The position numbers were made by a program, and so were the translations under genes. From positions 1-64,000 of the forward strand of contig NZ_JANFLU010000011.1 in the NCBI RefSeq assembly GCF_024385525.1: a stretch of DNA of 64,000 bases, given 5' to 3'. Shown piece by piece: positions 25,427 through 39,742 of the stretch; the first letter of the stretch is position 1, and every line of letters begins with the position of its first letter. This DNA comes from Arthrobacter sp. zg-Y238 (lineage in GTDB: Bacteria > Actinomycetota > Actinomycetes > Actinomycetales > Micrococcaceae). The notes under the pieces are model-generated. The model had not been told where the DNA came from. It made no database searches and saw only the letters and a program-made list of their open reading frames with translations.

Positions 25427-27973
25427 TTATCGTGCTCCGGACACTTTGTATTCCTTCTGGTCGAACCGGAACATGAAGGCGGCCATGGCATCGCGCTTTA
25501 CCGGCTCCAAGGCGCGGTAAGTGCGGGTTCCATTGGCTTCGGTCCACCCGGTACTGATGCCTTGATCGGCCAGCCAGGCCATTTCCTTGTAAAACTGCTG
25601 GCCGGTGGTGACATCTGCAAAGGGCGAAATAGCCGGGGCGGTGTAGGCGGGGGAACCGGCCAAGCGGTACATGAAGGCGGCCATGGCATCGCGCTTTACC
25701 GGCTCCAAGGCGCGGTAGGTGCGGGTTCCATTGGCTTCGGTCCACCCGGTACTGATGCCTTGATCGGCGAGCCAGGACATTTCCTTGAAGAACTGTCTAT
25801 TTACCGGCACATCCGCGAACGGGGAGACGTTCGGAGCAGCAAAGGACGGCTCGTCCGCAAGGCGGTACATGAATGCGGACATCGCATCACGCGCCACGGG
25901 ATTTAGGGGACGGTACGTGCCGTCGTCCCAGCCAGTCGATATACCCTCAGCGGCCATCCAACGGATTTCCTCGGAAAACTGCATGTCAACCGGAACATCC
26001 TTGAACGGTGCTGTTACCGGCGTGGTGCTCCCTCGGACTATGGCGGTAGGGCTGGACGTAACCGCGGTACTGGCGTAGTCGGGTGCAGACCCAGTCACAG
26101 TGACAGTGATGGTGCTACCGGAATCGCCGATGTCGAGCTTATATCGGCTCGAAGTGGCCCCGGTTATGGCTTTGCCTCCACGGTTCCACTGGTAGGTGAA
26201 CTGGACGCCCTTGTCCCAGGTCCCCGGGGCGGCGGTCAAGGTTTCGCCTACCGTGGGGGTTCCGGTGATGACGGGTCCGGACTGGTAGGCGACGGACCGG
26301 ATGGTCACGTTGGCGGTGGGTGCCGTGGTGACGGAGGCGGAAGTGAATCCGGTTCTGCTGCCGGTAACCTTCGCGGAGATTCTAGTCCCAGTGTGGAAAG
26401 CCGTGAGTTTGAGGGATTTCCCGGTGGCACCCTCAATAGCCTTTCCGTCGCTCAGCCATTGATAGGACAGCGAAGCTTTGTCGCTCCATGTTCCCGGTTC
26501 GACGGTCAGTGTCTGTCCCTGGACTGCCGCTCCTGAGATGGCGGGCTTAACGAGGTTCTTGACCGTCTCGGCCGGCGCGGCGACAACTTGGACCGTAGGG
26601 TTGGACACGACCGTGAGAGGGTTGTAGCCGCGCGCTGAGGCCTGCACCGAAAAGGAGATGGCCGCGCCGATGTCTTCAGGGACGGGTGTGTAGGAGGTGG
26701 CACCCTCGGCACCGCTTATTTCCATACCGTCGCGGAGCCAGGTGTACTTAAGGACCGGATTCGCGTTCCAGCTTCCGGAATCCGGAACGATGGGTTTACC
26801 GACAATGGCCGTGACGTCTTTGATGGAGGGCTTTACCGTATAAGCCAGTTGCGGTGCCGGGATATCGATAGCCAAATCAATGCTCTTCGGAGACATTCCG
26901 GAAGCGCTTCCGGTGACGGTCACGGACGTATTCGTCTCAAAGTCTTGGATTACATGGGTGGGCCCGGTTTCGCCGGTGCTCCACAGGTACGTCAGCGTTG
27001 CTCCGTCGGTCCATTTCCCAGGGGCAACGGTCAGTGTCTCACCCCATGCACGAATGCCGGCAATTGTGGGCTCCTCGAAGATTTCCACCGATGTGGGTCG
27101 CGGAATTACCGGGGTCGCAGCGGAAAAGACGGTTGTGGTGCGGTAACCAGGTGCCGTCGCTGTCACTCCCACCCAGATATTAGTGCCGGGGGCGTAATTG
27201 ACTCGAAGTGTTGCCTCGGTGGCACCGGGAATCTTCCATAGTTCGGCATACCACTGATAGGTAAGCTGGGTTCCGGCCGGCCAACGGGCTTCCTTCAACC
27301 CGAGGGTCTGTCCGTATGCTGCTGTTCCCAGGATGGCCGGTGTTTCGGCCGGCACGGGAGGCAGGGCGGTAGCGGCCAGGAATTCCTCCGCAGTGGCATA
27401 GGTTGCCTCCGGCACGGTGCGGTATGTATAGAAAGTTGTGGAACCCCATAGCCGTTCCCGCCCGTCGGTGGAAAGGCCTATTCCAATAACGTTGTCTTCC
27501 CGGCGGCTCATATTGTCATTGTGGCCAGGGGAGTTTATCCACTGCGTGACGAGTAGCGGCGCGTCGGCGGGGGAATTGTAGGCGATATTTTCGGAAGCTG
27601 AAGAGTAGCCTGACACCCGCAAATCTTTGTGGTAGCTGGTGGAATGCACCAGTAAACCGGTATCGGCCATATGCCGGGACCATTCCTGTGCAACGGCGGA
27701 CGCGTTGACTCCTATGCGCAGGGCAGGAAGTCCCTCGCTCTTGCGGAACGCGTTGATTCCGTTGAAGACATCTATGATCTGTTGTTCGCTGGCTGTCCAC
27801 GCTGCGGGTTTCAGCACCTGTGCTTCAGTGGCTCCTGCGGGAGCCGCCATGACCGGTGGCGCTGCGCTGACAGTTCCGAGCGTAATCAAAACAGCCATGA
27901 GAAAGGCACCGGCTGCCACTGCAGTCTTGTCCATGCCGCGGCCGGGCAGAAAGGTTTTCCGGCGGAAGTGCAT
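25427..27973 (-). CDS. secreted CAP-domain protein with Ig-like and SLH repeats
   Basis: An 848-residue exported surface protein. Signal peptide: basic start, hydrophobic core about 19-42, cut near PPVMAAPAG. CAP (SCP/allergen V5) domain about 62-195 with FNGINAFRKSEGLPAL, the HS of LVHSTSYH, and PGHNDNM. Then about five immunoglobulin-like repeats of roughly 85 residues (pattern GTWS..A.L.YQWL.DGKAI.GAT), and three SLH-like repeats from about 660 to the end that would hold it at the wall. GAGAGG precedes the ATG. The last two SLH units are almost identical in DNA, a sign of recent duplication. Function could be adhesion or peptidoglycan-associated; CAP domains have no single activity. Confidence 0.9.
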   Translation of the reverse strand: MHFRRKTFLPGRGMDKTAVAAGAFLMAVLITLGTVSAAPPVMAAPAGATEAQVLKPAAWTASEQQIIDVFNGINAFRKSEGLPALRIGVNASAVAQEWSRHMADTGLLVHSTSYHKDLRVSGYSSASENIAYNSPADAPLLVTQWINSPGHNDNMSRREDNVIGIGLSTDGRERLWGSTTFYTYRTVPEATYATAEEFLAATALPPVPAETPAILGTAAYGQTLGLKEARWPAGTQLTYQWYAELWKIPGATEATLRVNYAPGTNIWVGVTATAPGYRTTTVFSAATPVIPRPTSVEIFEEPTIAGIRAWGETLTVAPGKWTDGATLTYLWSTGETGPTHVIQDFETNTSVTVTGSASGMSPKSIDLAIDIPAPQLAYTVKPSIKDVTAIVGKPIVPDSGSWNANPVLKYTWLRDGMEISGAEGATSYTPVPEDIGAAISFSVQASARGYNPLTVVSNPTVQVVAAPAETVKNLVKPAISGAAVQGQTLTVEPGTWSDKASLSYQWLSDGKAIEGATGKSLKLTAFHTGTRISAKVTGSRTGFTSASVTTAPTANVTIRSVAYQSGPVITGTPTVGETLTAAPGTWDKGVQFTYQWNRGGKAITGATSSRYKLDIGDSGSTITVTVTGSAPDYASTAVTSSPTAIVRGSTTPVTAPFKDVPVDMQFSEEIRWMAAEGISTGWDDGTYRPLNPVARDAMSAFMYRLADEPSFAAPNVSPFADVPVNRQFFKEMSWLADQGISTGWTEANGTRTYRALEPVKRDAMAAFMYRLAGSPAYTAPAISPFADVTTGQQFYKEMAWLADQGISTGWTEANGTRTYRALEPVKRDAMAAFMFRFDQKEYKVSGAR
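25471..25785 (-). repeat. near-identical SLH unit DNA repeat
   Basis: Segments 25471-25587 and 25669-25785 are the same over 117 bases apart from a handful of differences. The spacing of 198 bases equals 66 codons, one SLH unit. The third SLH unit further upstream in the gene is clearly more diverged. Confidence 0.9.
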
Positions 27974-28132: not shown

Positions 28133-29215
28133 GTGAACACTCTTACGCTTCCGGACCGCAGCTGGGCCGAAACCGCCATCCGACGCATCGAGGCCGAGGG
28201 GGCACGCTCGGCTGACACGCACCTGTTCCAGGTCCCGGTCCCGGCCGGCTGGTCCGTGCAGATCTACCTGAAGGATGAGTCCACCCACCGCACCGGCAGC
28301 CTCAAGCACCGGCTGGCCCGCTCCCTCTTCCTCTTCGGCCTGGTCAACGGCTGGATCACCGAGGGCACCACCATCGTGGAGGCTTCCAGCGGTTCCACTG
28401 CCGTCTCGGAGGCTTACTTCGCCCAACTCCTGGGACTGCCGTTCGTGGCCGTGATGCCGCAGACCACCAGTGCGGAGAAGATCCGGCTGATCGAGCACTA
28501 CGGCGGGCGCTGCCACTTCGTCCAGGAGCCTTCCGAGGTGTACGCCGCTGCCGAGGCCGTAGCGGCCAGCACCGGCGGGCACTACATGGACCAGTTCACG
28601 TATGCCGAACGCGCCACCGACTGGCGGGGCAACAACAATATTGCCGAGTCGATCTTTTCCCAGATGGCCCAGGAGGACCATCCGCTGCCGGACTGGATAG
28701 TGGTGGGTGCCGGTACCGGCGGGACAAGTGCAACGATCGGCCGCTATATCCGCTATCACCGGTATCCCACCCGGCTGGCAGTGGTGGATCCGGAGAACTC
28801 CGCATTCTTCCCCGCCTGGCAGAACCCGGGGGAGCCCGCGGCCGGAAGGCCCTCCCGGATTGAGGGTATTGGCCGGCCCCGGCCGGAACCCAGCTTCGTT
28901 CCGGCGGTAATCGACCATATGATCCAGGTCCCCGACGCCGCCTCGGTTGCCGCCTCGCGGCACCTGCGGCGAATCACCGGACTGCATGCGGGACCCTCCA
29001 CCGGCACCAATCTCTGGGGTGTCTGGCAGTTGGCCGCAGCAATGGAAGCGGCCGGCCGTGCCGGAAGCATCGTCTCGCTTGTGTGCGACTCGGGGGACCG
29101 GTACACCGCGTCCTACGGCGACGACGCCTGGTTGGAGTCCCGCGGGCTGGATCCGGCCCGGGCCACGGCCGTGCTGGAGGAACTGTTCCGGACCGGGCGG
29201 TGGCCTGCGGGCTGA
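28133..29215 (+). CDS. PLP-dependent cysteine synthase-family protein
   Basis: A 360-residue fold-type II PLP enzyme. Lys58 in TGSLKHR is the likely cofactor lysine; [10 protein letters not shown] near 86 binds the substrate/cofactor, [12 protein letters not shown] near 198 the PLP phosphate, and CDSGDRY near 322 the ring nitrogen. It is related to cysteine synthase and, among actinobacteria, to the Cds1-type L-cysteine desulfhydrase, so it may make or break cysteine; the sequence alone does not decide. The start is GTG 28133. A decayed piece of a second copy lies at 25248-25304. It stands alone, 60 bases or more from other genes. Confidence 0.88.
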
Positions 29216-29280
29216 TCCGCTCCGGGCGGACCGCGGCCGGAGCAATGGCGGCAGGCACCGCTCCTTGATCGTTATTGAGA

Positions 29281-29313
29281 ATTGTTGACAATCGTGTTTA
29301 CCAAAAATACCGT
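29281..29313 (+). promoter_or_regulatory. GntR-type operator over promoter of ABC importer operon
   Basis: The perfect palindrome ATTGTTGACAAT is at 29281-29292. It contains a consensus -35 box TTGACA (29285-29290); 17 bases later stands TACCGT (29308-29313), a fair -10 box. A protein bound to the palindrome would block the -35 box of the importer operon. The same palindrome occurs at three other promoters nearby. Confidence 0.75.
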
Positions 29314-29358
29314 GTGTGTGACCTAGCTAACTTTTTACACGGAAACCGGGGAATGACA

Positions 29359-30336
29359 ATGAAGCCAATTCTTAGGGTGCTCGCCGCCTCCACTGCGGTC
29401 CTGGCTCTGGCCGCCTGCGGCTCGGGGTCGCCCAGCGGGGAGGCCGAAGACACCGGCGAGGCCGGTGGCGGTGAGCTCACCCAGGTGACGGTCGGAGTCA
29501 TTCCCATCGTCGATGTTGCCCCCATCTACCTCGGCGTCCAGGAAGGCTTCTTCGAAGAGGAAGGCCTGGAGCTGGAACTGCAGCCGGCCCAGGGCGGCGC
29601 GGCCATTGTTCCGGCCGTCATGAGCGGCAGCATGGACTTCGGCTTCAGCAACATTTCCTCGATGCTGGTGGCCAAGTCCAAGGGCCTGGATGTGCAGGTG
29701 GTGGCCGCTGGAGCGGCGTCGACAGGCGAGGACGGCGCCGATTTCGGCGGCATCCTGGTCAACCCGGATGCCGGGATCGAGACGGCGGCGGACCTCGCTG
29801 GCAAGAAGGTCGCCGTCAACACGCTCAACAACATCAACGACACCACCGTCCGGGCCTCCGTGCGCAAGGCAGGCGGTGACCCGTCGGGCATCGAGTTCGT
29901 GGAACTGGCCTTCCCCGATATGCAGGCTGCCCTGGAACGCGGCCAGGTGGACGCCATCCAGGTGGTGGAGCCCTTCCTGACCGGCGGCCAGAACGCCGGG
30001 TCCACGCCGATCGCTTCCAACTACGTGGATACCGCGGAGGACCTGACCGTCGCAGGCTACTTCACGACGTCGGCGAAGGCCGAGGACGATGCCGAGACGG
30101 TGGAGAAATTCACGGCGGCCATGAACAAGTCCTTGGAATACGCGGAGGAGAACCCGGACGCCGTCCGCGAAGTCCTGCTCACCTACACGAAGATCGACGC
30201 CGAGACCGCGAAGGCACTCACCCTGCCCAGCTTCACCACGGAAATCAATCGTGCCGGCGTGGAAACGCTTGCGGAGCTTTCGCTCAGTGACGGTTTGATC
30301 AGTGAAGAGCCGAAGCTGGATGAGTTGCTGCCGTAA
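29359..30336 (+). CDS. ABC transporter substrate-binding lipoprotein, NitT/TauT type
   Basis: A 325-residue lipoprotein: signal peptide with lipobox LAAC at about 18-21, then a Glu-rich linker and a periplasmic-binding-protein-like fold of the NMT1/SsuA group (IVDVAPIYLGVQEGFFEEEGL, MDFGFSNISSMLVAKSKGL, LAGKKVAVNTLNNIND). ATG 29359 is preferred since CGGGGA lies six bases upstream; ATG 29353 sits on that site. The family carries nitrate, taurine, sulfonates, and in some aromatic pathways phthalate. Here the importer lies next to ring-cleavage genes and shares their operator, so an aromatic acid is the likely cargo. The next gene starts inside its stop (TAATG). Confidence 0.92.
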   Translation: MKPILRVLAASTAVLALAACGSGSPSGEAEDTGEAGGGELTQVTVGVIPIVDVAPIYLGVQEGFFEEEGLELELQPAQGGAAIVPAVMSGSMDFGFSNISSMLVAKSKGLDVQVVAAGAASTGEDGADFGGILVNPDAGIETAADLAGKKVAVNTLNNINDTTVRASVRKAGGDPSGIEFVELAFPDMQAALERGQVDAIQVVEPFLTGGQNAGSTPIASNYVDTAEDLTVAGYFTTSAKAEDDAETVEKFTAAMNKSLEYAEENPDAVREVLLTYTKIDAETAKALTLPSFTTEINRAGVETLAELSLSDGLISEEPKLDELLP

Positions 30337-31175
30337 TGAGTACTGACGTGCTGGAACCCGGCCGGGCTGCGCAGCCACGCGCAGCCCGGCCGGGTGCGCG
30401 CCGCCCAGTGCCGAAGCCGGTGCTGGGCCTGGCCGGGGTCCTTGGCTTCCTGCTGATCTGGGAACTGGTTCCACGAGTCGGCCTGGTCCAGCCCCGCTTC
30501 CTGCCCCCTGCCTCGGAAGTCATCATCGCCCTCGTCCGGGACTTCGGGCTGACTGCCTTCTGGGTGGCCGTGGGGCACACCCTGATGGCCTGGGCCATCG
30601 GCCTAGCAGCCGCCGTCGTCGCCGCCGGCATCCTGGGCCTGGTGATCGGCATGAGTCCGTTCCTGCGCCGCTTTACCAACTCCACCATCGAGTTCCTGCG
30701 CCCGGTTCCCTCCGTTGCGCTGATCCCGCTGGCCGTGCTGCTGTTCGGCGTCAAAATCGAATCTTCTTTGATGCTGATCATCTATGCCTGCTTCTGGCAG
30801 GTGCTGATCCAGGTGCTCTACGGGGTGGCCGACGTCGACAATGTGGCAACGCAGACGGCGCAGTCCTACGGCTTCTCCAAGCTGCAGCGGATCCGGCATG
30901 TGGTGTTTCCCACCGTGCTGCCGTACCTGATGACGGGCATCCGTCTCGCGGCCTCCGTGGCGTTGATCCTGGCCATCACCGCCGAGCTGATCATTGGCTC
31001 GCCCGGACTCGGGCGTGAGATTGCCGATGCCCAGTCCGGCGGTGCCATCTCCGGCATGTACGCGCTGGTGCTGGCCACCGGCCTGCTGGGCGTGGCGATC
31101 AATATCGTGATGCGCCAGGTCGAGCAGCGCCTGCTGTCCTGGCATCCGTCCGTCCGCGGAGAGGTGGTGCTGTGA
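30336..31175 (+). CDS. ABC transporter permease, NitT/TauT type (first)
   Basis: A 279-residue permease with a 35-residue cytosolic Arg/Pro-rich start and about six membrane helices. The EAA-like loop with QTAQSYGFSKLQRIRHVVFPTVLPYL contacts the ATPase. Its ATG overlaps the preceding TAA stop by one base and its TGA overlaps the next GTG. The operon has two different permease genes, so the channel is probably a heterodimer rather than the homodimer usual for SsuC/TauC. Confidence 0.93.
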   Translation: MSTDVLEPGRAAQPRAARPGARRPVPKPVLGLAGVLGFLLIWELVPRVGLVQPRFLPPASEVIIALVRDFGLTAFWVAVGHTLMAWAIGLAAAVVAAGILGLVIGMSPFLRRFTNSTIEFLRPVPSVALIPLAVLLFGVKIESSLMLIIYACFWQVLIQVLYGVADVDNVATQTAQSYGFSKLQRIRHVVFPTVLPYLMTGIRLAASVALILAITAELIIGSPGLGREIADAQSGGAISGMYALVLATGLLGVAINIVMRQVEQRLLSWHPSVRGEVVL

Positions 31176-31945
31176 AGACGCTCAAGAGTCTTGGCTACGT
31201 GGTTGCGCTGCCCCTGCTGCTGGTGCTCCTCTGGTGGGCTTCCACCCGCGGCGAACCGAACTTCTTCGTGCCCACGCCCTCCGCCCTGGTGGATGTCTTC
31301 GGGCCCACCTGGTTTGAGGGGCGGATCACCGGGGATGTCCTGCCGTCGGTGGGGCGGCTGCTCGCGGGGCTCGCCATCGCGATCATCCTGGGCATCGTCG
31401 TCGGGCTGCTGGTGGGCTTGAACCGGACACTGCGGGCGCTGACCGAACCCGTGTTCGAGTTCTTCCGTGCCCTGCCGCCCCCGGTGCTGGTTCCGGTGCT
31501 GATCCTGCTGGTGGGCCTCAACGACGGCATGAAGGTTGCCGTGATTGTGGTCGGCTGCATCTGGCCGGTGCTGTTGAACACCATCGAAGGGGTCCGCTCC
31601 ATCGACCCGGTGCAGAACGAAACGACCCGGTCCTACGGCATTTCCGGGCTGAACCGGATCCGCTACCAGGTGCTGCCTTCAGCCGCACCGACGATCATGG
31701 CAGGCATCCGGCAGTCGCTGTCCATCGGCCTGATCCTCATGGTCATTTCGGAGATGTTCGGTTCCTCCTCGGGGCTGGGCTTCACTATCCTGCAGTTCCA
31801 ACGGTCCTTCGCCATCCCGGAAATGTGGTCCGGCATCCTGGTGCTCGGCCTGATCGGCCTGGCCCTGTCCCTGATCTTCCAATGGTGCGAACGGCGCGTG
31901 CTGCGCTGGTACCACGGCCTTAAAGAGGTAGAAAATGCAGCCTGA
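31172..31945 (+). CDS. ABC transporter permease, NitT/TauT type (second)
   Basis: A 257-residue permease with about six helices. The loop TTRSYGISGLNRIRYQVLPSA is the EAA-like site for the ATPase. The start GTG overlaps the previous TGA (GTGA) and the last 11 bases overlap the ATPase gene, so the importer genes are tightly coupled. It is the partner of the first permease. Confidence 0.93.
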   Translation: MKTLKSLGYVVALPLLLVLLWWASTRGEPNFFVPTPSALVDVFGPTWFEGRITGDVLPSVGRLLAGLAIAIILGIVVGLLVGLNRTLRALTEPVFEFFRALPPPVLVPVLILLVGLNDGMKVAVIVVGCIWPVLLNTIEGVRSIDPVQNETTRSYGISGLNRIRYQVLPSAAPTIMAGIRQSLSIGLILMVISEMFGSSSGLGFTILQFQRSFAIPEMWSGILVLGLIGLALSLIFQWCERRVLRWYHGLKEVENAA

Positions 31946-32810
31946 CGCCATCTCCGCCAAAACAACTCCGGCGCCGGCGGCCGCCACACCGTCCGGGCGT
32001 ACCCTGCCCGAAGGGGAAGCGCTGCTTTCGGTCCGCGGGCTGAAAAAGGTCTACTCCACCGACGGCGGCCCCATCGAAGCCGTCCGCAACCTCACCTTCG
32101 ACCTGGGCCACGGCGAGCTGGCCTGTCTGGTCGGTCCCTCCGGCTCCGGCAAAACCACCCTGCTCAAGTGCATCGCGGGACTGCTTGGAGCCACCGAGGG
32201 CGAAGTGCTGCTGGACGGCAAGAAGGTGACGGCACCGCCCAAGAAAATGGCTGTGGTGTTCCAGGAATACGGCCGTTCCCTGTTTCCCTGGCTGCGGGTT
32301 GCGGACAACGTGGAACTGCCCCTGAAGAACGCCGGCGTGCCCAAGGCGGAACGCCGGCAGCGGGTTGCCGACGCGCTGGAAGCGGTGGGACTGGAGCACG
32401 TGCCCAAGTCCTATCCCTGGCAGCTGTCCGGAGGCATGCAGCAGCGGGTGGCCATTGCCCGCGCGGTGGCATACCAGCCGGAGGTGCTGCTGATGGATGA
32501 GCCGTTTGCCGCCGTCGACGCCCAGACCCGTGCCGATCTGGAGGACCTTACCCGGCGGCTGTGGAAGGACCTGGGCATGACCATCCTGTTCGTCACGCAC
32601 GACATCGACGAATCCGTGTACCTCGGTGAACGCGTCATCATCCTGTCCTCCTCGCCAACCGTGGTGCAGGAGGATATCCGAATCGATCTCCCGGAGGACC
32701 GCGACCAGCTGGAGACCCGGGGAATGCCGCGCTTCACGGAACTGCGCCACCACGTCTACGAGCAGATCCAGCTCGCCAAGAAGGGCCACCGGCCGGACGC
32801 GGCGCGCTGA
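31935..32810 (+). CDS. ABC transporter ATP-binding protein, SsuB/TauB type
   Basis: A 291-residue ATPase. Walker A GPSGSGKT near residue 70, Q-loop VFQEYGRSLFPWL, signature LSGGMQQR near 160, Walker B VLLMDEPFAAVDAQTR and H-loop FVTHDIDESVYL are intact, all in SsuB/TauB form. It is the last gene of the importer operon and is followed 14 bases later by a strong two-way terminator that separates it from the convergent dioxygenase gene. Confidence 0.94.
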   Translation: MQPDAISAKTTPAPAAATPSGRTLPEGEALLSVRGLKKVYSTDGGPIEAVRNLTFDLGHGELACLVGPSGSGKTTLLKCIAGLLGATEGEVLLDGKKVTAPPKKMAVVFQEYGRSLFPWLRVADNVELPLKNAGVPKAERRQRVADALEAVGLEHVPKSYPWQLSGGMQQRVAIARAVAYQPEVLLMDEPFAAVDAQTRADLEDLTRRLWKDLGMTILFVTHDIDESVYLGERVIILSSSPTVVQEDIRIDLPEDRDQLETRGMPRFTELRHHVYEQIQLAKKGHRPDAAR

Positions 32811-32823
32811 ATCCGCTAGAACA

Positions 32824-32867
32824 AACGACTTACGGCCCCTCCCGCGAAGGAGGGGCCGTAAGTCGTT
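32824..32867. terminator. strong bidirectional terminator
   Basis: A perfect 19-bp stem (32824-32842 with 32849-32867) with a 6-base loop lies between the convergent importer operon and dioxygenase gene, 13 and 9 bases from their stops. It can serve both strands. Confidence 0.9.
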
Positions 32868-32876
32868 ATACCGGGG

Positions 32877-33839
32877 TCAGTCGGCGGGAAGCTCCACCGG
32901 GGGAGTGCCGTGGGTATGGAAGGTGTCGATGGTCTTCATGCCCCAGGCCTGGCCCTTGGCACGCTCGGCCTCGGTCCATTCGATGGTCTTCCAATCCGGC
33001 GCCAGGATCAGGCGGGCACCGGCATTGCAGAATTCGATCCGGTTGCCGCCGGGTTCATACACGTACAGGAAAAAGGTCTGCTGGATGGCGTGCTTGTGCG
33101 GCCCCGTTTCGATGTGGATGCCGTTTTCCAGGAAGATGTCCGCAGCCTTGAGGATGTCTTCGCGGGTGTCGGTGGCGAACGCGACGTGGTGCAGCCTGCC
33201 GCTGCTGCCGGTCCAGTCACCGCTGTAGACCAGGTCATAGGACTTGTTGGAGAAGGTAAACCACTGGCCGGAAAGCCGGCCGTTGTCCAGCCGGATCTGT
33301 TCGGTGGGCTTGCCGCCCAGCACCTCTTCCACGAACCGGCCGTTCTCGGCAACGTCTGCGCCGAGGAAGTTCACATGGTCCAGCCGGCGGGCATTCACTC
33401 CGCGGCCCGGGAAGCGGTCCGCCTGGTTCTTCAGGGCCGGCCGGGACTCCTCGGTGGGGACATGCCATTCGCTCTCGAAATAGATGTCCATCGGATGCCC
33501 GTCCGGATCCGTGAAGGCGTAGGTCTTGCCCATGCCCGGGCCGCCGTCGTGCCAGCCGATCCCGCGTCCTGCCGCCTCGATGGCGGCGACCCGGCGCTGC
33601 AGAGCCTCTTCGCTGGCGGCACGCAGGCCCAGGCGCCCGACGCCGGAGGTCTCGTGGGCGGTCAGCTTGATGGTGTGGTGTTCGTAGTCATCCCACGCGT
33701 GCAGGTAGGCCGAATCGCCGTCGCGCGCGACTTCGCGCATTGCCAGCAGTTCGGTGAAGAACCAGAGGCTCTTGTCAAAATCCGGGGTATAGAGTTCCAC
33801 GAAGCCCAAATGGGCAACGTCGCGAAAAGCATTAGGCAT
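32877..33839 (-). CDS. type I extradiol ring-cleavage dioxygenase (VOC family)
   Basis: A 320-residue enzyme with two vicinal-oxygen-chelate halves (about 6-125 and 152-275). By hand alignment to homoprotocatechuate 2,3-dioxygenase the iron ligands are His155, His218 and Glu269; Asn157, Trp193, His250 and Tyr259 also match active-site residues. The acid/base His (His200 there) is Tyr201 here, in KSYDLVY before GRLHHVAF. AAAGGAAA precedes ATG 33839; a longer reading to 33932 is unlikely. It should cleave a catechol-type ring beside the hydroxyls. The neighbouring 4-oxalomesaconate enzymes suggest a gallate- or protocatechuate-like substrate. The operator ATTGTTGACAAT lies about 95 bases upstream. 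Confidence 0.9.
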   Translation of the reverse strand: MPNAFRDVAHLGFVELYTPDFDKSLWFFTELLAMREVARDGDSAYLHAWDDYEHHTIKLTAHETSGVGRLGLRAASEEALQRRVAAIEAAGRGIGWHDGGPGMGKTYAFTDPDGHPMDIYFESEWHVPTEESRPALKNQADRFPGRGVNARRLDHVNFLGADVAENGRFVEEVLGGKPTEQIRLDNGRLSGQWFTFSNKSYDLVYSGDWTGSSGRLHHVAFATDTREDILKAADIFLENGIHIETGPHKHAIQQTFFLYVYEPGGNRIEFCNAGARLILAPDWKTIEWTEAERAKGQAWGMKTIDTFHTHGTPPVELPAD

Positions 33840-33934
33840 TGCGGTTTCCTTTGCGGTCTGCTCAAACGGCACGGGCTTCGTTGCCGGTCTGCCGGTCCCG
33901 AAGCAGTGCTGAGAGTCAACCAGCGGCTCCAAGT

Positions 33935-33946
33935 ATTGTCAACAAT
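33935..33946 (-). promoter_or_regulatory. GntR-type operator upstream of dioxygenase gene
   Basis: Perfect 12-bp palindrome ATTGTCAACAAT on the plus strand (ATTGTTGACAAT on the gene strand), about 95 bases before the dioxygenase start. On the gene strand it again contains TTGACA, a -35-like hexamer, but I see no convincing -10 box at the right distance. Confidence 0.7.
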
Positions 33947-33963
33947 TTCGCAGCCAATGCGGG

Positions 33964-34746
33964 TCAGTCGGCTTCGGCGCCGTCCGCAGCCAGCGCGGAC
34001 AGCCAGCTGAACGTGCCTTCAGTCATCCAGGCGGGCGTGCCAAGCCCCCGGAGGTAAGCCAGCGAGTCTTCGACCTCGTGGGCGCGCCGCACGGCGTGTG
34101 TCTGCGACCCCTGAAGGAGGCGGGTCACCAGGTCCGGCCCGTCCGGCCCCAACTCCCCGGCGATTTCCGCCAGGAGCCACTCCTCCGCGCCGGCCGCCCT
34201 CCCTGCGGCCCGGCACTCCAGCACCAGACCGGCCAGCCCCTTCATGAAGACGCTGCGCAGCAGTTTGCGGCCTGCCGCGGCCCCGGGGGCGCCGGGGATC
34301 GTTTCGACGGGGCTGCCGAAGCCTTCCATCAGGGCGGCAAACCTGTCCGCCGCGGTGCCGCTGACCAAGAGCGGGGTTCGGCTGCCGGCGCGGGGGACCG
34401 GTGCCATTACGGCCACGTCCACCAGATCCACCCCGTGGCCTGCGGCGAGTTCGGCGAGTCCGGCTTTGTCCTCCGGGCCGGCGGTGTTGAAATCCGCGAA
34501 CACTGCGTTGGCTGGAAGCAGCGGCAGTGCCTGCTCCGCGACGCTGCGGGCGGCGGCGGCGCCGACCAGGCTGATGACCAGATCGGTTCCGTCAACGGAA
34601 TCGGCGAGCGAGCCGAACTGGTGGATGCCGGCCTCCCGTGCGTCGGTGTAGGGGTCGTAGCCGCGTACATCTGCCCCGGCCTCCGCCAGTCCAAGGGCAT
34701 ACAGGCGTCCGGCTTCACCCAGGCCCAGTACGGTCACCGCAGTCAT
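33964..34746 (-). CDS. NAD(P)-dependent dehydrogenase with DUF1932 domain
   Basis: A 260-residue protein of the beta-hydroxyacid dehydrogenase/6-phosphogluconate dehydrogenase group. The Rossmann motif VLGLGEAGRLYALGLAEAG is at the N-terminus, and the C-terminal helical half (about 175-250) fits DUF1932. GAGAGGACACGACC precedes ATG 34746. The catalytic Lys region is KLLRSVFMKGLAGLV. Sharing an operator with the ring-cleavage genes implies a step in the same route, for example oxidising a semialdehyde or hydroxy acid, but no pathway enzyme of this family is known to me in gallate breakdown. Its operator lies 41 bases upstream, in the space shared with the divergent GntR gene. Confidence 0.82.
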   Translation of the reverse strand: MTAVTVLGLGEAGRLYALGLAEAGADVRGYDPYTDAREAGIHQFGSLADSVDGTDLVISLVGAAAARSVAEQALPLLPANAVFADFNTAGPEDKAGLAELAAGHGVDLVDVAVMAPVPRAGSRTPLLVSGTAADRFAALMEGFGSPVETIPGAPGAAAGRKLLRSVFMKGLAGLVLECRAAGRAAGAEEWLLAEIAGELGPDGPDLVTRLLQGSQTHAVRRAHEVEDSLAYLRGLGTPAWMTEGTFSWLSALAADGAEAD

Positions 34747-34786
34747 GGTCGTGTCCTCTCGTAGCTGTCCGCCGATTATTGCCATG

Positions 34787-34798
34787 ATTGTCAACAAT
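34787..34798. promoter_or_regulatory. GntR-type operator in divergent promoter region
   Basis: Perfect palindrome ATTGTCAACAAT between the divergent DUF1932 dehydrogenase (start 34746) and GntR regulator (start 34897) genes. It could control both, giving autoregulation of the regulator. Confidence 0.72.
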
Positions 34799-34896
34799 TC
34801 CAAGCTGCGGCTGCGGAGGACCCGGCAATGCAGTGATAACTTTGCGTGATACTAAAATGAGAGCGGGCGGGGTGCCGTTCCGCCGAGGAGTTTCCA

Positions 34897-35562
34897 ATGA
34901 CAGCAGATGCAGCAGCGACCACGAGTAACGCTGCGCAGGTGGCGGACGCAATCCGCACCGCAATTCTTGACGGCGAGCTAGTGCCGTCCCAGCGGCTTGT
35001 GGAGGCGGACCTGTGCACGCAGTTCAAAGCGAGCCGCAGCGCGGTCCGCTCCGCCCTTGCCGAACTCGCCGTCGAAGGCGTGGTGGAGCGGGTGCAGAAC
35101 CGCGGGGCCCGCGTGCGGTCGGTGCCCGTGGAAGAGGCCGTGGAGATCATTGAAGTCCGCGGCGTGCTGGAGGCGCTGTGTGCCCGCAAAGCAGCGGAGC
35201 GGATTGACGCCGGGCAGGTCGCCGAACTCCGGCAGATGGCCGACGATATGGCGTCCGCCGTAAAGTCCGGAGAGTTGATGCGCTACTCGGAGATCAACTC
35301 CAAGCTCCATCGGCGCATCGTGGAAATCAGCGGCCAGGGAACCGCCGGGGCCACCATCGAAAGGCTGCGGGCACAGAATGTGCGCCACCAGTTCCGGCTG
35401 GCGGTCCAGCCTGGGCGTGCCAACGTTTCGCTGCCGGAACACGTGGACATCATTGAGGCCATCTGCACCGGGCAGGGCGAGCAGGCCGCCCGGATGATGG
35501 AGGCCCACATGGTGAGCATTGCCGATGCCATCCGCCGGACAGGCTCTGCATCCGCGCACTAA
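34897..35562 (+). CDS. GntR family transcriptional regulator (FCD subfamily)
   Basis: A 221-residue regulator. The winged helix (about 12-78) has IRTAILDGELVPSQRLVEADL and the recognition part FKASRSAVRSALAELAVEGVV; the FCD ligand domain (about 85-215) has the metal-ligand His residues in LHRRIVEISG and PEHVDIIEAI and EAHM. GAGGAG precedes the ATG. FCD regulators bind TNGTN2-3ACNA sites and are released by organic acids. The palindrome TTGTCAACAA fits that rule and stands at four promoters around this gene, so it very probably controls the importer, dioxygenase, dehydrogenase and lig-like operon in answer to the aromatic substrate or a breakdown product. Confidence 0.92.
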   Translation: MTADAAATTSNAAQVADAIRTAILDGELVPSQRLVEADLCTQFKASRSAVRSALAELAVEGVVERVQNRGARVRSVPVEEAVEIIEVRGVLEALCARKAAERIDAGQVAELRQMADDMASAVKSGELMRYSEINSKLHRRIVEISGQGTAGATIERLRAQNVRHQFRLAVQPGRANVSLPEHVDIIEAICTGQGEQAARMMEAHMVSIADAIRRTGSASAH

Positions 35563-35937
35563 GCCGAGTTCCCGCCAACCGAGCGCGCGGCGCGGTTAGC
35601 GGCTGCGGCAGCACGGATGAGGACCACCGTCTGGAAGACAAGGGCCAGAAGGGCAACGCCGTGACCTGTCGGACCGCCGGCCAGTAGCTGCACGGCCACC
35701 GCTGCCGAGAGTCCGAAACCAGCAACGGGCCACATTTTCTTCACTACCGGCAGGGCCGCCCTGTGCCCGGCGACCCAGGCCGCATCGGACATCTTTGTGT
35801 ATCGGGTGCGGATCCCGACGGCACCGTTCGCTCCGATGAGGCCCTCAGCTGCCTGGCGCGTGACTGCAACACAGGCGCCCGGCAGGAGGACGAGGACAAA
35901 GTAATAAGGGGATCAGGCCGCCAAGCTCCTCAGCCAC
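35559..35937 (-). pseudogene. SdpI family membrane protein gene, frameshifted
   Basis: On the minus strand a GTG at 35937, nine bases after AGGAG (35947-35951), opens a frame reading MAEELGGLIPLL. One base too many at about 35901 breaks it; the next frame goes on as FVLVLLPGACVAV, the SdpI hallmark GLIGANGAVGIRTRYTKMSD and two more hydrophobic segments to the stop at 35559. The whole would be about 126 residues with three membrane helices, the usual SdpI size. SdpI confers immunity to the SdpC toxin in Bacillus; actinobacterial relatives are uncharacterised. Either a true mutation or a sequencing error. An internal ATG at 35792 would give only a 77-residue tail. Its stop shares bases with the GntR stop. 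Confidence 0.75.
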
Positions 35938-36129
35938 GGTCTGCGGCTCCTGGGCGAGGCAGGACGCTCCTGTCGGGCGGCGTGCTGCTCAAAACGTGCT
36001 CAAATGTCCCCGTAGTCATGCCATCGAATCTAACGCATAGGTCAGTCCGCTGCCGGGACCAGGGTGACCTCCAGCGTGGGACCGGGGAGCATGGGGGCTG
36101 CCGTTCCGCTATTTGTTTTTGTCACCGTT

Positions 36130-36160
36130 ATTGTCAACAATCTGGTTGACGCGGTACATT
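36130..36160 (+). promoter_or_regulatory. GntR-type operator and promoter of lig-like operon
   Basis: Perfect palindrome ATTGTCAACAAT at 36130-36141. TACATT at 36155-36160 is a good -10 box, and the -35 position falls within the palindrome. Transcription would start about 36167, at the GTG itself, so the first mRNA is probably leaderless. Confidence 0.72.
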
Positions 36161-36166
36161 CTTGTG

Positions 36167-37360
36167 GTGCAGACCACAGAAAAGTCCTCGGTGCCGGGTT
36201 CCATCCGCGGCAGTCAGCTTGGCATCCCCTGCTGGTTCATGCGGGGAGGGACCTCCCGCGGACCGTTCTTCCGCCGCGCCGACCTGCCCGCTGCCCTGCA
36301 CGGCGAACGCCGGGACGAGGTGCTGCTTGCCGCCCTCGGATCCCCCCACCCCCTGCAGATTGACGGACTGGGCGGCGGCAATCCGCTGACCAGCAAGGTG
36401 GGGATTGTGGACGTCAGCAGCCGGGACGGGGTGGACCTGGAATTCCAGTTCGCCCAGCTGCAACCAACTTCCGACACCGTTGATACCACGGCCAACTGCG
36501 GAAACATGCTCGCCGCCGTCGTTCCGTTCGCCGTGGAGTCCGGCCTCCTTCAGCCCGGCGGGGATACCACCACTGCCCGGGTCCTGACCCTGAACACGGG
36601 CATGGTGGCCGAGATCAGCATCGTGACGCCGGCAGGGGACCAGGGCCGGTTTGTCGAGTACGGCGGGGACACGCGGATCGACGGCGTTCCCGGCACGGCG
36701 GCGGCTGTCACCATCAACTTCCTGGACACGGCCGGTTCCGTCTGTGCCTCCCTGCTTCCCACCGGCAACGCCAGCGACACGGTCGTTCTCGACGGCGGAG
36801 GTCCGGTCCGCGTCACCTGCATCGACAACGGCCAGCCGCTGGTCATGGTCCGGGCCGCGGACCTGGGCCGCACCGGCTACGAATCCGCCGCCGATTTGAA
36901 CCGTGACGAAGAGCTGAAGCAGAGGCTTGAAGCACTGCGGCTCCAGTGCGGGCATCTGATGGGGCTGGGAGACGTCACCGCCAAGAACTACCCGAAGATG
37001 ACACTGATAGCCCCGCCGGCACACGGCGGCACCATCACCACCCGCAGCTTCATCCCGCATGTATGCCACGAATCCATTGGCGTGCTGGCCGCCGTCACCG
37101 CTGCCACCGCCTGCGTCATTGACGGCACCGTGGCACGGGAAGTCAGCACCGTTGCGGATGCCGGTGCCGGAGCGGACCTGACGGTTTCGGTGGAGCATCC
37201 CTCCGGTGAATTCACCGTGGAACTCGGGCTCGACCCGCAGGACCCCCAGCACGTCACCAAATCCGCGCTGCTGCGCACCGCCCGGCTGATCATGGCCGGC
37301 GAAGTTTTTGTCCCGCGCCGTCTCCAGGAGGCGGCAGCAACAGAGGAGAACACCCGATGA
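36167..37360 (+). CDS. 4-oxalomesaconate tautomerase (PrpF/LigU family)
   Basis: A 397-residue two-domain isomerase of the PrpF fold. GIPCWFMRGGTSRGPFF near residue 20 and NCGNMLAAVVPFA near 108 are the family motifs around the substrate pocket, and SFIPHVCHESIGVLAAVTA lies near 300. In gallate and protocatechuate 4,5-cleavage routes LigU/GalD turns keto 4-oxalomesaconate into the form used by the hydratase. Start is GTG 36167 (or GTG 36164), seven bases after a -10 box and thus leaderless. Its stop overlaps the ligJ-like start in ATGA. PrpF itself (aconitate isomerase in propionate use) is the alternative, but the next two genes decide for the aromatic route. Confidence 0.88.
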   Translation: MQTTEKSSVPGSIRGSQLGIPCWFMRGGTSRGPFFRRADLPAALHGERRDEVLLAALGSPHPLQIDGLGGGNPLTSKVGIVDVSSRDGVDLEFQFAQLQPTSDTVDTTANCGNMLAAVVPFAVESGLLQPGGDTTTARVLTLNTGMVAEISIVTPAGDQGRFVEYGGDTRIDGVPGTAAAVTINFLDTAGSVCASLLPTGNASDTVVLDGGGPVRVTCIDNGQPLVMVRAADLGRTGYESAADLNRDEELKQRLEALRLQCGHLMGLGDVTAKNYPKMTLIAPPAHGGTITTRSFIPHVCHESIGVLAAVTAATACVIDGTVAREVSTVADAGAGADLTVSVEHPSGEFTVELGLDPQDPQHVTKSALLRTARLIMAGEVFVPRRLQEAAATEENTR

Positions 37361-38412
37361 TCATCGATTGCCACGGCCACTACACCACCGCACCGCCGGC
37401 CCTGGGCGACTGGCGGGACCGGCAGATCGCGGCGCTCGCCGATCCCGGAACGGCTGCTCCGGACCCGGCGGACCTGGTCATCAGCGACGATGAACTGCGC
37501 GAAAGCATCTCCGCGAACCAGCTGCGCCTGATGGACGAGCGCGGTATCGACCTGACCGTCTTCTCGCCGCGCGCCTCCTTTATGGCGCACCACGTAGGGG
37601 ACTTCGCCACTTCCGCCGCGTGGGCGGCCATCTGCAACGAGCTGTGCTTCCGGGTCAGCCAACTCTTCCCCGACCGGTTTGCTCCGGCCGCCATGCTGCC
37701 GCAGTCGCCCGGCGTGGACCCGGCGTCCTGCATCCCGGAACTGGAACGCTGCGTCAACGAATACGGTGCCGTGGCGTTGAACCTCAACCCGGACCCCTCC
37801 GGCGGCCACTGGACCTCCCCTCCGCTGACGGACCGCTCCTGGTACCCGATCTACGAAAAGATGGTTGAGTACGGCCTGCCGGCGATGATCCACGTGAGCA
37901 CCAGCGTGAATCCGGCCTTCCACACCACGGGCGCCCACTACCTCAACGCGGATACCACGGCGGTAATGCAGCTGATCCAGGGGGACCTGTTTACGGACTT
38001 CCCGGAGCTGAAGTTCGTTATTCCGCACGGCGGCGGCGCCGCGCCCTACCACTGGGGGCGCTTCCGCGGTCTGGCCATGGCACTGAAGAAGCCGCCGCTG
38101 GAGGAACACCTGCTCAACAACGTCTTCTTCGACACCTGCGTCTACCACCAGCCCGGCATCGACCTGCTGTTGGAGGTGATGCCCACCCGGAACATCCTCT
38201 TCGCCTCCGAGATGATCGGAGCGGTGCGGGACGTCGATCCAGGCACCGGGTTTAACTTCGATGACACCGGGCGGTATCTGGCTGCGGCGGGCCTGACCGG
38301 CGAGGAACTTGCCGATATCCGTGAGAACAATACCCGTGCCGTCTATCCGCGCCTGGATGCCCTGCTGACGAGGCAGGGCCATGAACCCCAAAGGAGCAGC
38401 ACCCATGCATGA
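37357..38412 (+). CDS. ligJ: 4-oxalomesaconate hydratase, amidohydrolase type (LigJ)
   Basis: A 351-residue amidohydrolase-fold enzyme adding water to 4-oxalomesaconate to give 4-carboxy-4-hydroxy-2-oxoadipate. The metal-binding HGHYTT replaces the HxH at residues 6-11; IHVST near 180, VIPHGGGA near 222 and the late Glu/Asp in [10 protein letters not shown] complete the site as in LigJ of Sphingobium. The ATG overlaps the tautomerase stop by four bases. The 3' end overlaps the next gene, whose start lies inside it, so the three enzymes are translationally coupled. An orthodox decarboxylase of the ACMSD group is the alternative, less likely because of the HGHYTT motif and neighbours. Confidence 0.88.
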
Positions 38413-39088
38413 ACTCGGAGTGGTCCACCGCAGCATCACCCGTGCCCCGCAGTCCGACGTCGAGGCTTTGGCCCCGTACGGCACCAGCACCGTGCACGAG
38501 GCCATGGGCCGGCTGGGACTGATGCGCCCCTACATGCGCCCCGTCTACCCCGGTGCCAAACTCTGCGGCCCGGCGGTGACCGTGCTGCTGCAGCCAGGGG
38601 ACAACTGGATGCTGCACGTGGCCGTTGAACAACTCCAGCCCGGCGACGTGCTGGTGGCCGCCTGCACCACGGAGAGCGAAGACGGCTTCTTCGGCGAGCT
38701 GCTGGCCACTTCGGTGCGTGCCCGCGGCGGTGTTGGTCTGGTGATCGACGGCGGCTGCCGTGATGCCGCGGCTTTGGAAGAGATGGACTTTCCCGTGTTC
38801 TCGCGTGCCATCAACTCCAAGGGAACGGTGAAGGCGACCCTGGGTTCGGTAAACGTTCCGATAGTGTGCGCCAACGCCCTGGTGAACCCCGGCGACGTGG
38901 TGGTCGCAGATGTGGACGGCGTCGTCGTCGTTCCTGCCGACCGTGCCGCAGAAGTGGCCGAGGCTTCCCGGAAGCGGGAGGACAACGAGGCAGCCAAACG
39001 CGAACGCCTCGCCGCGGGAGAACTCGGACTGGACATGTACTCGATGCGGGGACCGCTGGAAGCGGCAGGACTGCGCTACATCGATTAG
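38405..39088 (+). CDS. ligK: 4-carboxy-4-hydroxy-2-oxoadipate aldolase (LigK/RraA family)
   Basis: A 227-residue class II aldolase that splits 4-carboxy-4-hydroxy-2-oxoadipate into pyruvate and oxaloacetate and can decarboxylate oxaloacetate. [13 protein letters not shown] near residue 30, [20 protein letters not shown] near 70 and the GGCRD motif near 125 (catalytic Arg and metal Asp) are the family signs. AAAGGAG eight bases upstream decides for ATG 38405, which lies within the end of the hydratase gene. It is the last step of the route to central metabolites. RraA, a related RNase E inhibitor, lacks the pathway context. Confidence 0.9.
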
Positions 39089-39163: not shown

Positions 39164-39670
39164 TTACGGCAGCGGCGGAAGTACACGCTTGAATCCGATG
39201 TGTGAGGCGTCAAAGCCCTGCCGCTGGTAAAAGCGGTGTGCGGACTCCCGCCGCGCATTGGAGGTGAGCTGGACCAACGTGGCGCCGTTCCGCCGGCCTT
39301 CGGCAACCGCCCAGTCCATCATGGCCGCACCGAGCCCGTTGGACCGGAGATCGGCCCGCACATGGACGGCTTCAACCTGTAACCGGGTTGCCCCGCCGAG
39401 AGCCAGGCAGGGGATCAGGGTCAACTGCAGTGTCCCCGCAATCTTCCCGGCTGAATCCTCGACCGCGGCCAGGAAGTTGGCCGGATCCGCGGCAATGGCA
39501 GCATAAGCGCGCAGATACGGCGCCAGGGGATTGGCGCCCGGCGTACCGGCAACGGCATCGGAAGCCGGCATGTCGGCCATCAGCAGTCGAACAATCGGAG
39601 CGACGTCGTCGCGCTCTGCCCTGCGCACCCGGTAAGAGCCGCCGAGCAACGCGGCGGGACGGATTTCCAT
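39164..39670 (-). CDS. GNAT family N-acetyltransferase
   Basis: A 168-residue acyltransferase. VEAVHVRADLRSNGLGAAMMDWAVAEG near residue 105 holds the acetyl-CoA motif (RxxGxG/A as RSNGLG), followed by AHRFYQRQGFDASHIGFKR, typical GNAT motif B. ATG 39670 is taken over ATG 39688 for better spacing to a GGAAG stretch. The substrate is unknown. It converges with the lig-like operon, 75 bases away. Confidence 0.85.
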   Translation of the reverse strand: MEIRPAALLGGSYRVRRAERDDVAPIVRLLMADMPASDAVAGTPGANPLAPYLRAYAAIAADPANFLAAVEDSAGKIAGTLQLTLIPCLALGGATRLQVEAVHVRADLRSNGLGAAMMDWAVAEGRRNGATLVQLTSNARRESAHRFYQRQGFDASHIGFKRVLPPLP

Positions 39671-39742
39671 GCCCGCAGTCTTCCACATGCTCGCAAACGG
39701 GCTCCATCCATTGACCCGGCGGGCCGGGCGCGGGCAGGGTTA

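Follow-up and report, generated by a model that had tools for sequence, protein, structure and literature searches.

The question raised by the locus at 29.3-39.1 kb of a 64,000-nt stretch from Arthrobacter sp. zg-Y238 (genome of 3.55 Mb in 20 contigs; the whole stretch is referred to below as the window) is which enzyme opens the aromatic ring in a cluster that carries the genes of the 4-oxalomesaconate (OMA) route together with a VOC-family ring-cleaving dioxygenase. The cluster comprises a NitT/TauT-type importer, the VOC dioxygenase and a DUF1932 dehydrogenase (both on the minus strand), a GntR/FCD regulator and ligU-ligJ-ligK. Judging from sequence, it is most likely a variant gallate pathway of wide occurrence, in which the ring cleaver is unrelated to GalA/DesB and has an unusual active site. 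We consider it rather probable that the cluster is a complete gallate regulon controlled by a repressor, in which a VOC dioxygenase, belonging to a clade with tyrosine in place of histidine, replaces the LigB-type GalA/DesB.

The operon acting on OMA consists of ligU, encoding OMA tautomerase (36113..37360, plus strand; NF033377, 488.4 bits at the cut-off of 440), ligJ, encoding OMA hydratase (37357..38412, plus strand; matching the solved OMA hydratases PDB 2gwg at 1.1e-176 and PDB 6dxq at 2.3e-143), and ligK, encoding 4-carboxy-4-hydroxy-2-oxoadipate (CHA) aldolase (38381..39088, plus strand; TIGR02798, 388 bits at the cut-off of 304.5). The three frames overlap one another, and this, together with the profile and PDB matches, confirms the coupled tautomerase-hydratase-aldolase operon claimed by the first-pass annotation, whose gene positions were likewise borne out by the list of open reading frames (ORFs) and the NCBIfam/Pfam matches. 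LigU would tautomerise OMA, LigJ would hydrate it to CHA, and LigK would split CHA into pyruvate and oxaloacetate; as family-level assignments, these predicted steps are strong. The dioxygenase gene (32877..33932, minus strand; likely start at the ATG near 33839) contains two PF00903 stretches, that is, two VOC repeats, and based on the match to the catechol 2,3-dioxygenase model TIGR03211 (326.3 bits), the alignments and the conservation we propose that it encodes a gallate 4,5-dioxygenase with the type I fold. Genes of the catechol meta-pathway were not found in the cluster; instead, the dioxygenase is flanked by the OMA genes.

The cluster contains no LigB-type dioxygenase, as had been claimed earlier, and a search of the whole genome for LigAB/DesB homologues, or for a LigB-type dioxygenase under the operator of the cluster, yielded only one MhpB-like protein. 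This sole PF02900 (LigB-superfamily) protein of the genome is encoded on contig 1 (431 bits at the cut-off of 291), adjacent to an alpha/beta hydrolase gene that we read as MhpC-like. The protocatechuate 3,4-dioxygenase genes pcaH and pcaG lie after the 4-hydroxybenzoate hydroxylase gene pobA, and LigI, the 2-pyrone-4,6-dicarboxylate (PDC) hydrolase without which PDC formed from protocatechuate cannot reach the OMA route, has no matches in this genome. Since the LigB-superfamily protein is MhpB-like, pcaHG are present and LigI is absent, gallate-type substrates are the only known sources of OMA compatible with this genome, and the VOC enzyme is the only ring-cleaver candidate for the OMA route in it.

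Linkage to the OMA genes was examined in other genomes as well. A species-level genome collection contains at least 589 matches to the dioxygenase, and we inspected the best 80 loci together with flanks of up to 10 kb; by record names all of them are actinobacterial, and one (L036, labelled Rhodococcus) was placed by the tree as Gloeocapsa. Among the listed matches, Arthrobacter sp. zg-Y844 is the closest named record for this locus, at 99% for the dioxygenase. We observed LigU-type genes in 77 and LigK-type genes in 76 of the 80 loci, and an OMA hydratase in 70, either GalB (n = 53) or LigJ (n = 17), never both, with ten loci having neither. GalB is of the PIG-L type (the representative from L037 matches the GalB structure 5cgz at 9.5e-77), and the exact run GalB-LigK-LigU-VOC is present in 43 of the 79 loci with a called VOC frame. 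For the ten hydratase-less loci, nine genomes could be searched (all except that of L102), and eight of these hold GalB (at least 65%) or LigJ (at least 62%) elsewhere; in G072 the hydratase found elsewhere is only a 132-residue GalB piece at contig ends. On the dioxygenase tree the hydratase type switches at least four times. The two hydratases are unrelated and alternate with one and the same dioxygenase, and this alternation is the strongest single argument that the dioxygenase product would enter the route as OMA.

The reverse test, starting from LigU, is less biased than the sample of the best 80 loci. In 396 genomes of the phylum we observed eight LigU-type proteins besides that of the window (46-50% identity), and seven of their genes adjoin a VOC gene. 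For nine weaker PrpF matches (34-42%), no VOC, LigJ, LigI, LigA or LigB neighbours were found within 4-kb stretches.

The dioxygenase cluster is also seen outside this sample, being widely spread in bacteria, which the first-pass annotation had no means of knowing from one sequence. A match is present in 316 plasmid records, 11 of which were opened and seven entered the neighbour and residue counts. Six plasmid stretches, from Agrobacterium vitis, A. tumefaciens, Thioclava, a Paracoccaceae strain, Roseibium and Pantoea piersonii, combine galB-C-D with the VOC dioxygenase, with no galA within the stretch; the Pantoea set (L160) also includes LysR and an aromatic-acid symporter (AAHS transporter). 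The plasmid copies of the dioxygenase are annotated as VOC family protein or bphC, and database records of the clade in general use the names catechol 2,3-dioxygenase, BphC or VOC family protein. Three plasmid loci, from Roseomonas, Methylobacterium and Chimaeribacter, break the pattern: the Methylobacterium plasmid keeps LigJ and LigK and has no LigU, and the Roseomonas stretch (L106) contains a LigI-type gene and no LigU. The importer families differ between loci. The earlier suggestion that the VOC dioxygenase itself would form OMA from gallate is thus supported by the linkage, by the interchangeable hydratases, by galBCD sets without galA, and by the tannase and O-demethylase neighbours described below.

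Regulation unites the same genes. The exact motif ATTGTCAACAAT occurs at four sites in the window, each located 5' of a unit: the importer (29281..29292), the dioxygenase (33935..33946), DUF1932 (34787..34798, between the divergent DUF1932 and GntR genes) and ligU-ligJ-ligK (36130..36141). With up to two mismatches allowed, ATTGTCAACAAT has nine matches in the window, eight of them being the four sites read on both strands, versus 1.0 expected, and none of 100 window shuffles reached nine. Genome-wide, exact matches of ATTGTNNACAAT (only exact ones were counted) are confined to the four cluster sites, all on contig 11, versus none for the reversed control. Hence the operator that the first-pass annotation had assigned jointly to the importer, the dioxygenase and the OMA genes is confirmed as exceeding chance, with exact sites at four units.

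The operator at ligU overlaps the -35-like hexamer of a promoter-like site at 36131-36160 (TTGTCA at 36131; the -10-like hexamer ends at 36160), one of two such sites found, versus 0.8 in shuffles. Because of this overlap, repression by the operator fits here. The true start of ligU is probably the GTG near 36167, just 3' of the operator and the -10 hexamer. The wider operator palindrome is approximately C-N-N-R-ATTGTYRACAAT-Y-N-N-G. In the related loci (1.53 Mb in total) we observed 111 TTGTYRACAA sites, distributed over 64 of the 80, versus two for the reversed pattern, and 102 of the 111 are situated -60 to 400 bases before a cluster gene. Six sites lie 53-60 bases before Amycolatopsis LigJ genes that are themselves 5 to 9 kb from the dioxygenase; shared regulation thus connects LigJ with the dioxygenase in loci in which the two genes are separated. 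One more site precedes a tannase gene by 197 bases (L030). The GntR/FCD regulator (34897..35562, plus strand; PF00392 and PF07729), whose gene is present in 64 of the 80 loci, is the proposed repressor: to judge from position and conservation, it would repress the four units via ATTGTCAACAAT until an inducer appears.

The active site sets the enzyme apart from the other members of its fold. Alignment to XylE (1mpy) and homoprotocatechuate 2,3-dioxygenase (HPCD; 1f1x) identifies His186, His249 and Glu300 as the metal ligands; these are invariant in all 87 sequences compared (the window, 79 loci and seven plasmid loci; L068 was left out, its ORF being uncalled), and Asn188, His281 and Tyr290 match HPCD Asn157, His248 and Tyr257. 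The position of the second-sphere catalytic histidine (His200 in HPCD, His199 in XylE) is occupied by Tyr232 in 87 of 87 sequences, with no gaps in the alignment from Trp224 to the Asp after Tyr232; L068, L160 and L161, checked separately, also have this tyrosine. That the usual catalytic histidine is missing was, like the spread of the cluster, beyond what the first-pass annotation could know. Histidine at 232 was looked for in six paralogues, two plasmid outgroups and the aligned PDB chains: all six paralogues from the genus (31-35% identity) have it, as do the outgroups from Thermus (44%) and Rhodococcus (39%), which carry Leu/Ala or Phe/Thr at positions 324/326. In the clade, Arg324 and Lys326 are invariant in the 87 sequences, Lys326 being at the place of HPCD Arg292, and these two residues may bind the ring carboxylate. 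We take the roles of His200 and the other HPCD residues as commonly described. His200 is called critical in the abstract of PMC10760822, and an excerpt of PMC3962378 describes His192 of DesB as conserved, its legend comparing this residue, as the catalytic histidine, with type I BphC.

Combining these observations, we propose the following scheme. The ABC system would import gallate or a related trihydroxybenzoate, and the VOC dioxygenase would cleave gallate at the 4,5 bond to give OMA. Gallate would bind the metal via two vicinal hydroxyls, and Lys326 and Arg324 would hold its carboxylate; oxygen would attack the carbon bearing the third hydroxyl, and Tyr232, which by alignment takes the place of the histidine, may form a hydrogen bond to that hydroxyl or pass a proton to or from it. 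A wider proposal, for and against which we see the chances as balanced, is that a whole clade of gallate dioxygenases arose from the catechol 2,3-dioxygenase (VOC) lineage and supplanted GalA/DesB in many Actinobacteria and Alphaproteobacteria, copies being also carried by plasmids of enterobacteria. Its members would carry out extradiol-type cleavage in the absence of the second-sphere histidine, whose proton-transfer role would be taken by Tyr232 and the third ring hydroxyl.

A number of observations weigh against the gallate regulon. The sample of 80 loci is not random, being drawn from the top of at least 589 matches and so made up of the nearest relatives, and one metagenome-assembled genome (L040) has neither hydratase above 40% identity. 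The eighth LigU locus of the reverse test (L131, G453 contig 13) is an actinobacterial OMA operon that uses LigAB; its order is LigK-LigU-LigJ-LigI-LigA-LigB, with a GFO/IDH/MocA-like oxidoreductase, read by eye as LigC, and a 4-hydroxybenzoate-hydroxylase-like gene, also named by eye. The Roseomonas gilardii plasmid pRo-1 (L106) has LigAB beside the VOC gene, and the Chimaeribacter plasmid carries a VOC copy with no OMA genes within 8 kb. NF009904, the model for gallate dioxygenases of the LigB type, exceeds its cut-off in none of 51 genomes (that of zg-Y238 and those of 50 of the 80 loci, with L076 to L105 left out of this search and of the tannase search), and 47 of the 51 have nothing above 108 bits; the remaining four (G061, G072, G075 and G089) hold LigB-type proteins scoring 216-321 bits, short of the cut-off of this fused model, each adjoined by a LigA-like piece and probably LigAB. 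In one further genome (G500; L155, contig 65), which has the VOC operon too, a LigB-type gene lies close to a second set of GalB, LigK and DesA. Since these four genomes and G500 also hold LigB-type genes, the VOC enzyme is not always the sole ring-cleaver candidate in a genome. The dioxygenase also passes the catechol 2,3-dioxygenase model, marginally (cut-off 320.2), and the closest PDB chain, 9wgj_A, is named catechol 1,2-dioxygenase, yet carries tyrosine at 232. Since 9wgj shares this tyrosine and Arg324 (position 326 is Arg), it is a possible member of the clade; either it could be misnamed or the clade could have an activity that was not expected. The presence of tannase in the genus does not track that of the dioxygenase (three of ten members with the dioxygenase, three of 18 without; among the ten, the match in G023 holds two in-frame TGA codons). 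Finally, the DUF1932 dehydrogenase belongs to the regulon and has no step in the gallate route.

Which substrate is used was addressed through the genes found near the dioxygenase. Gallate is released from hydrolysable tannins of plants and is also passed through when syringyl lignin is broken down. Tannase (PF07519) is encoded in seven of the 80 loci, and on the walnut plasmid of Agrobacterium tumefaciens it lies directly 3' of the operon. In the first 50 genomes, that of zg-Y238 excluded, four of 34 full-length tannases are located inside the loci versus 0.09 expected by length (P ~2e-6, assuming random placement and ignoring shared ancestry; two of the four are from Arthrobacter); tannases were counted at 250 bits or more, and lower matches, including one gene split in two, were dropped. 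The zg-Y238 genome has a full-length tannase (G000 C6 144714-146036, L132), unlinked to the cluster and without an operator. In Amycolatopsis acidicola (L152, G074 contig 52), LigJ, LigI and tannase lie on one contig and the VOC operon on another.

The linkage of tannase points to gallate itself. DesA/LigM-type O-demethylases by the operon in four of the 80 loci and LigI in 11 would also be expected if the main substrate were 3-O-methylgallate, formed from syringate and cleaved to the OMA methyl ester or to PDC, which would enter the route via an esterase or LigI; the PcaD-like alpha/beta hydrolase gene that overlaps the VOC gene in L106, with a Rieske/VanB pair nearby, fits this as well. We nevertheless regard 3-O-methylgallate as an unlikely main substrate here, given that the genome of zg-Y238 lacks LigI and that no O-demethylase was found in the cluster, the rest of the genome not having been searched for one.

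The DUF1932 protein is an NAD(P)-binding dehydrogenase (33964..34803, minus strand; PF03446 (NAD_binding_2) and PF09130; likely start at the ATG near 34746). The first-pass annotation saw no known place for it, and we come to the same outcome, as the gallate route has no redox step. The gene is present in 51 of the 80 loci and in five of the seven plasmid loci; it adjoins the GntR gene in 35 of 48 called ORFs (the window included), divergently in 26, and beside LysR on three alphaproteobacterial plasmids. Linkage to the regulators suggests a role related to the inducer, which DUF1932 may make or remove. Of the 29 loci without it, the genomes of 27 were searched (L045 and L102 being left out): 15 have a match elsewhere at 42-47%, and 12 have none at E 1e-25; hence DUF1932 is not essential for the core route. 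That a frequent gene stands without a role in the gallate route, and that importer families vary, could be explained if the substrate were some other, undescribed trihydroxylated or substituted aromatic acid yielding OMA, with DUF1932 acting upstream to make it. This explanation seems to us quite improbable, because of the loci and genomes that do without DUF1932 and of the tannase neighbours, which fit gallate.

DUF1932 could also have a place in protocatechuate 4,5-cleavage, where the VOC enzyme would make 4-carboxy-2-hydroxymuconate semialdehyde (CHMS), DUF1932 would replace the CHMS dehydrogenase LigC, and PDC hydrolase would complete the route. The Roseomonas plasmid is where such a role of DUF1932 in CHMS oxidation fits best: in L106 the DUF1932 gene overlaps the LigI-type gene (46.5% to an actinobacterial LigI), with LigAB nearby, and DUF1932 may stand in for LigC there. 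It is also present in nine of the 11 LigI-bearing actinobacterial loci; on the other hand, 42 of the 51 loci with DUF1932 have no LigI, and L131, which we read as a protocatechuate 4,5 operon, uses LigAB. LigC is not among the cluster genes, the rest of the zg-Y238 genome not having been searched for it, and we found no open-licence PMC paper joining DUF1932 with a dioxygenase and protocatechuate. For zg-Y238, with LigI absent and pobA-pcaHG present, we discount protocatechuate 4,5-cleavage, so the earlier idea that DUF1932 might serve a protocatechuate-like branch is unsupported in this genome, and we hold protocatechuate to be very unlikely as the substrate of the cluster.

Least probable of all is an ordinary catechol or alkylcatechol 2,3-dioxygenase placed beside the OMA genes by chance, for although the TIGR03211 match, the name of 9wgj and the nearest outgroup opened (the Thermus catechol 2,3-dioxygenase, which sits among meta-pathway genes and adjoins genes for a 4-hydroxyphenylacetate-3-hydroxylase-type protein, 4-hydroxy-2-oxovalerate aldolase and acetaldehyde dehydrogenase) speak for it, catechol cleavage products cannot enter LigU/LigJ/LigK, the linkage to LigU and LigK is nearly constant, the operator is shared, and both outgroups keep His232 and lack Arg324/Lys326. 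A role in the catechol meta-pathway was discounted on the gene context and the active-site residues.

The remaining cluster genes form the importer unit, all on the plus strand. They encode a NitT/TauT-family substrate-binding lipoprotein (29275..30336; PF09084 at 7e-35, with an SsuA-like match below its cut-off), whose likely start at 29353-29359, 3' of the operator, and lipoprotein nature were both called by eye; ABC permease 1 (30336..31175; PF00528); a putative ABC permease 2 (31172..31945), whose ORF overlaps both neighbours and groups with like genes at other loci; and the ABC ATPase (31935..32810; PF00005 at 1.6e-35). The cluster is flanked by genes for a PALP-family PLP-dependent enzyme (28133-29215) and a GNAT acetyltransferase (39164-39688). 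Further upstream, positions 25427-27973 of the window encode a protein of 848 aa that combines a CAP domain with an S-layer homology domain and also shows a weak Ig-like match.

The need for the second-sphere histidine has so far been probed mostly by mutation, and the clade provides a natural test of how far type I extradiol dioxygenases need it. Surveys seeking only LigB-type ring cleavers would miss organisms with VOC-type clusters; in a 2025 syringate study, a figure legend sorts strains by ligAB, desZ, mgaAB, desB and galA (PMC12314914). Among the open-licence PMC papers listed, we found no description of a type I (VOC) gallate dioxygenase in the titles and abstract beginnings. As this search covered open-licence literature only and the title of the 9wgj entry was not read, priority is not certain.

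The gal cluster of Pseudomonas putida KT2440 is galTAPRBCD, with the LigB-type GalA, a LysR regulator and an AAHS transporter. The window shares with it the OMA tautomerase, OMA hydratase and CHA aldolase chemistry, and the Pantoea plasmid set resembles it further in galB-C-D, LysR and the AAHS transporter, whereas the window has a VOC enzyme instead of GalA, LigJ as the hydratase, a GntR/FCD regulator and a NitT/TauT importer. This chemistry follows the route given in a passage of PMC13039779. The gallate/syringate route of Sphingobium SYK-6 (DesB, LigU, LigJ, LigK, LigI, DesA, LigM) is alike in its LigU, LigJ and LigK homologues and, in some related loci, in DesA/LigM- and LigI-type genes; the difference is in the dioxygenase, which has the type I fold in the window, while DesB, LigAB and DesZ of SYK-6 are all given as type II in an excerpt of PMC3962378. 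PcaA of Pseudarthrobacter phenanthrenivorans Sphe3 is likewise actinobacterial and converts gallate to OMA as a side activity (44%, according to a passage of PMC8431788), but it is a single-subunit type II enzyme encoded in a protocatechuate 4,5 operon. The catechol 2,3-dioxygenases XylE (1mpy) and 3lm4/7q2a have the same VOC fold and His-His-Glu ligands; unlike them, the window enzyme has Tyr232 for the catalytic histidine, Arg324 with Lys326, and no meta-pathway genes around it. Homoprotocatechuate 2,3-dioxygenase (1f1x, 1q0c) shares with the window enzyme the metal triad, the equivalents of Asn157, His248 and Tyr257 and a basic residue at Arg292, whereas the window enzyme has Tyr at the place of His200, Thr at that of Arg243 and Gly at that of Arg293.

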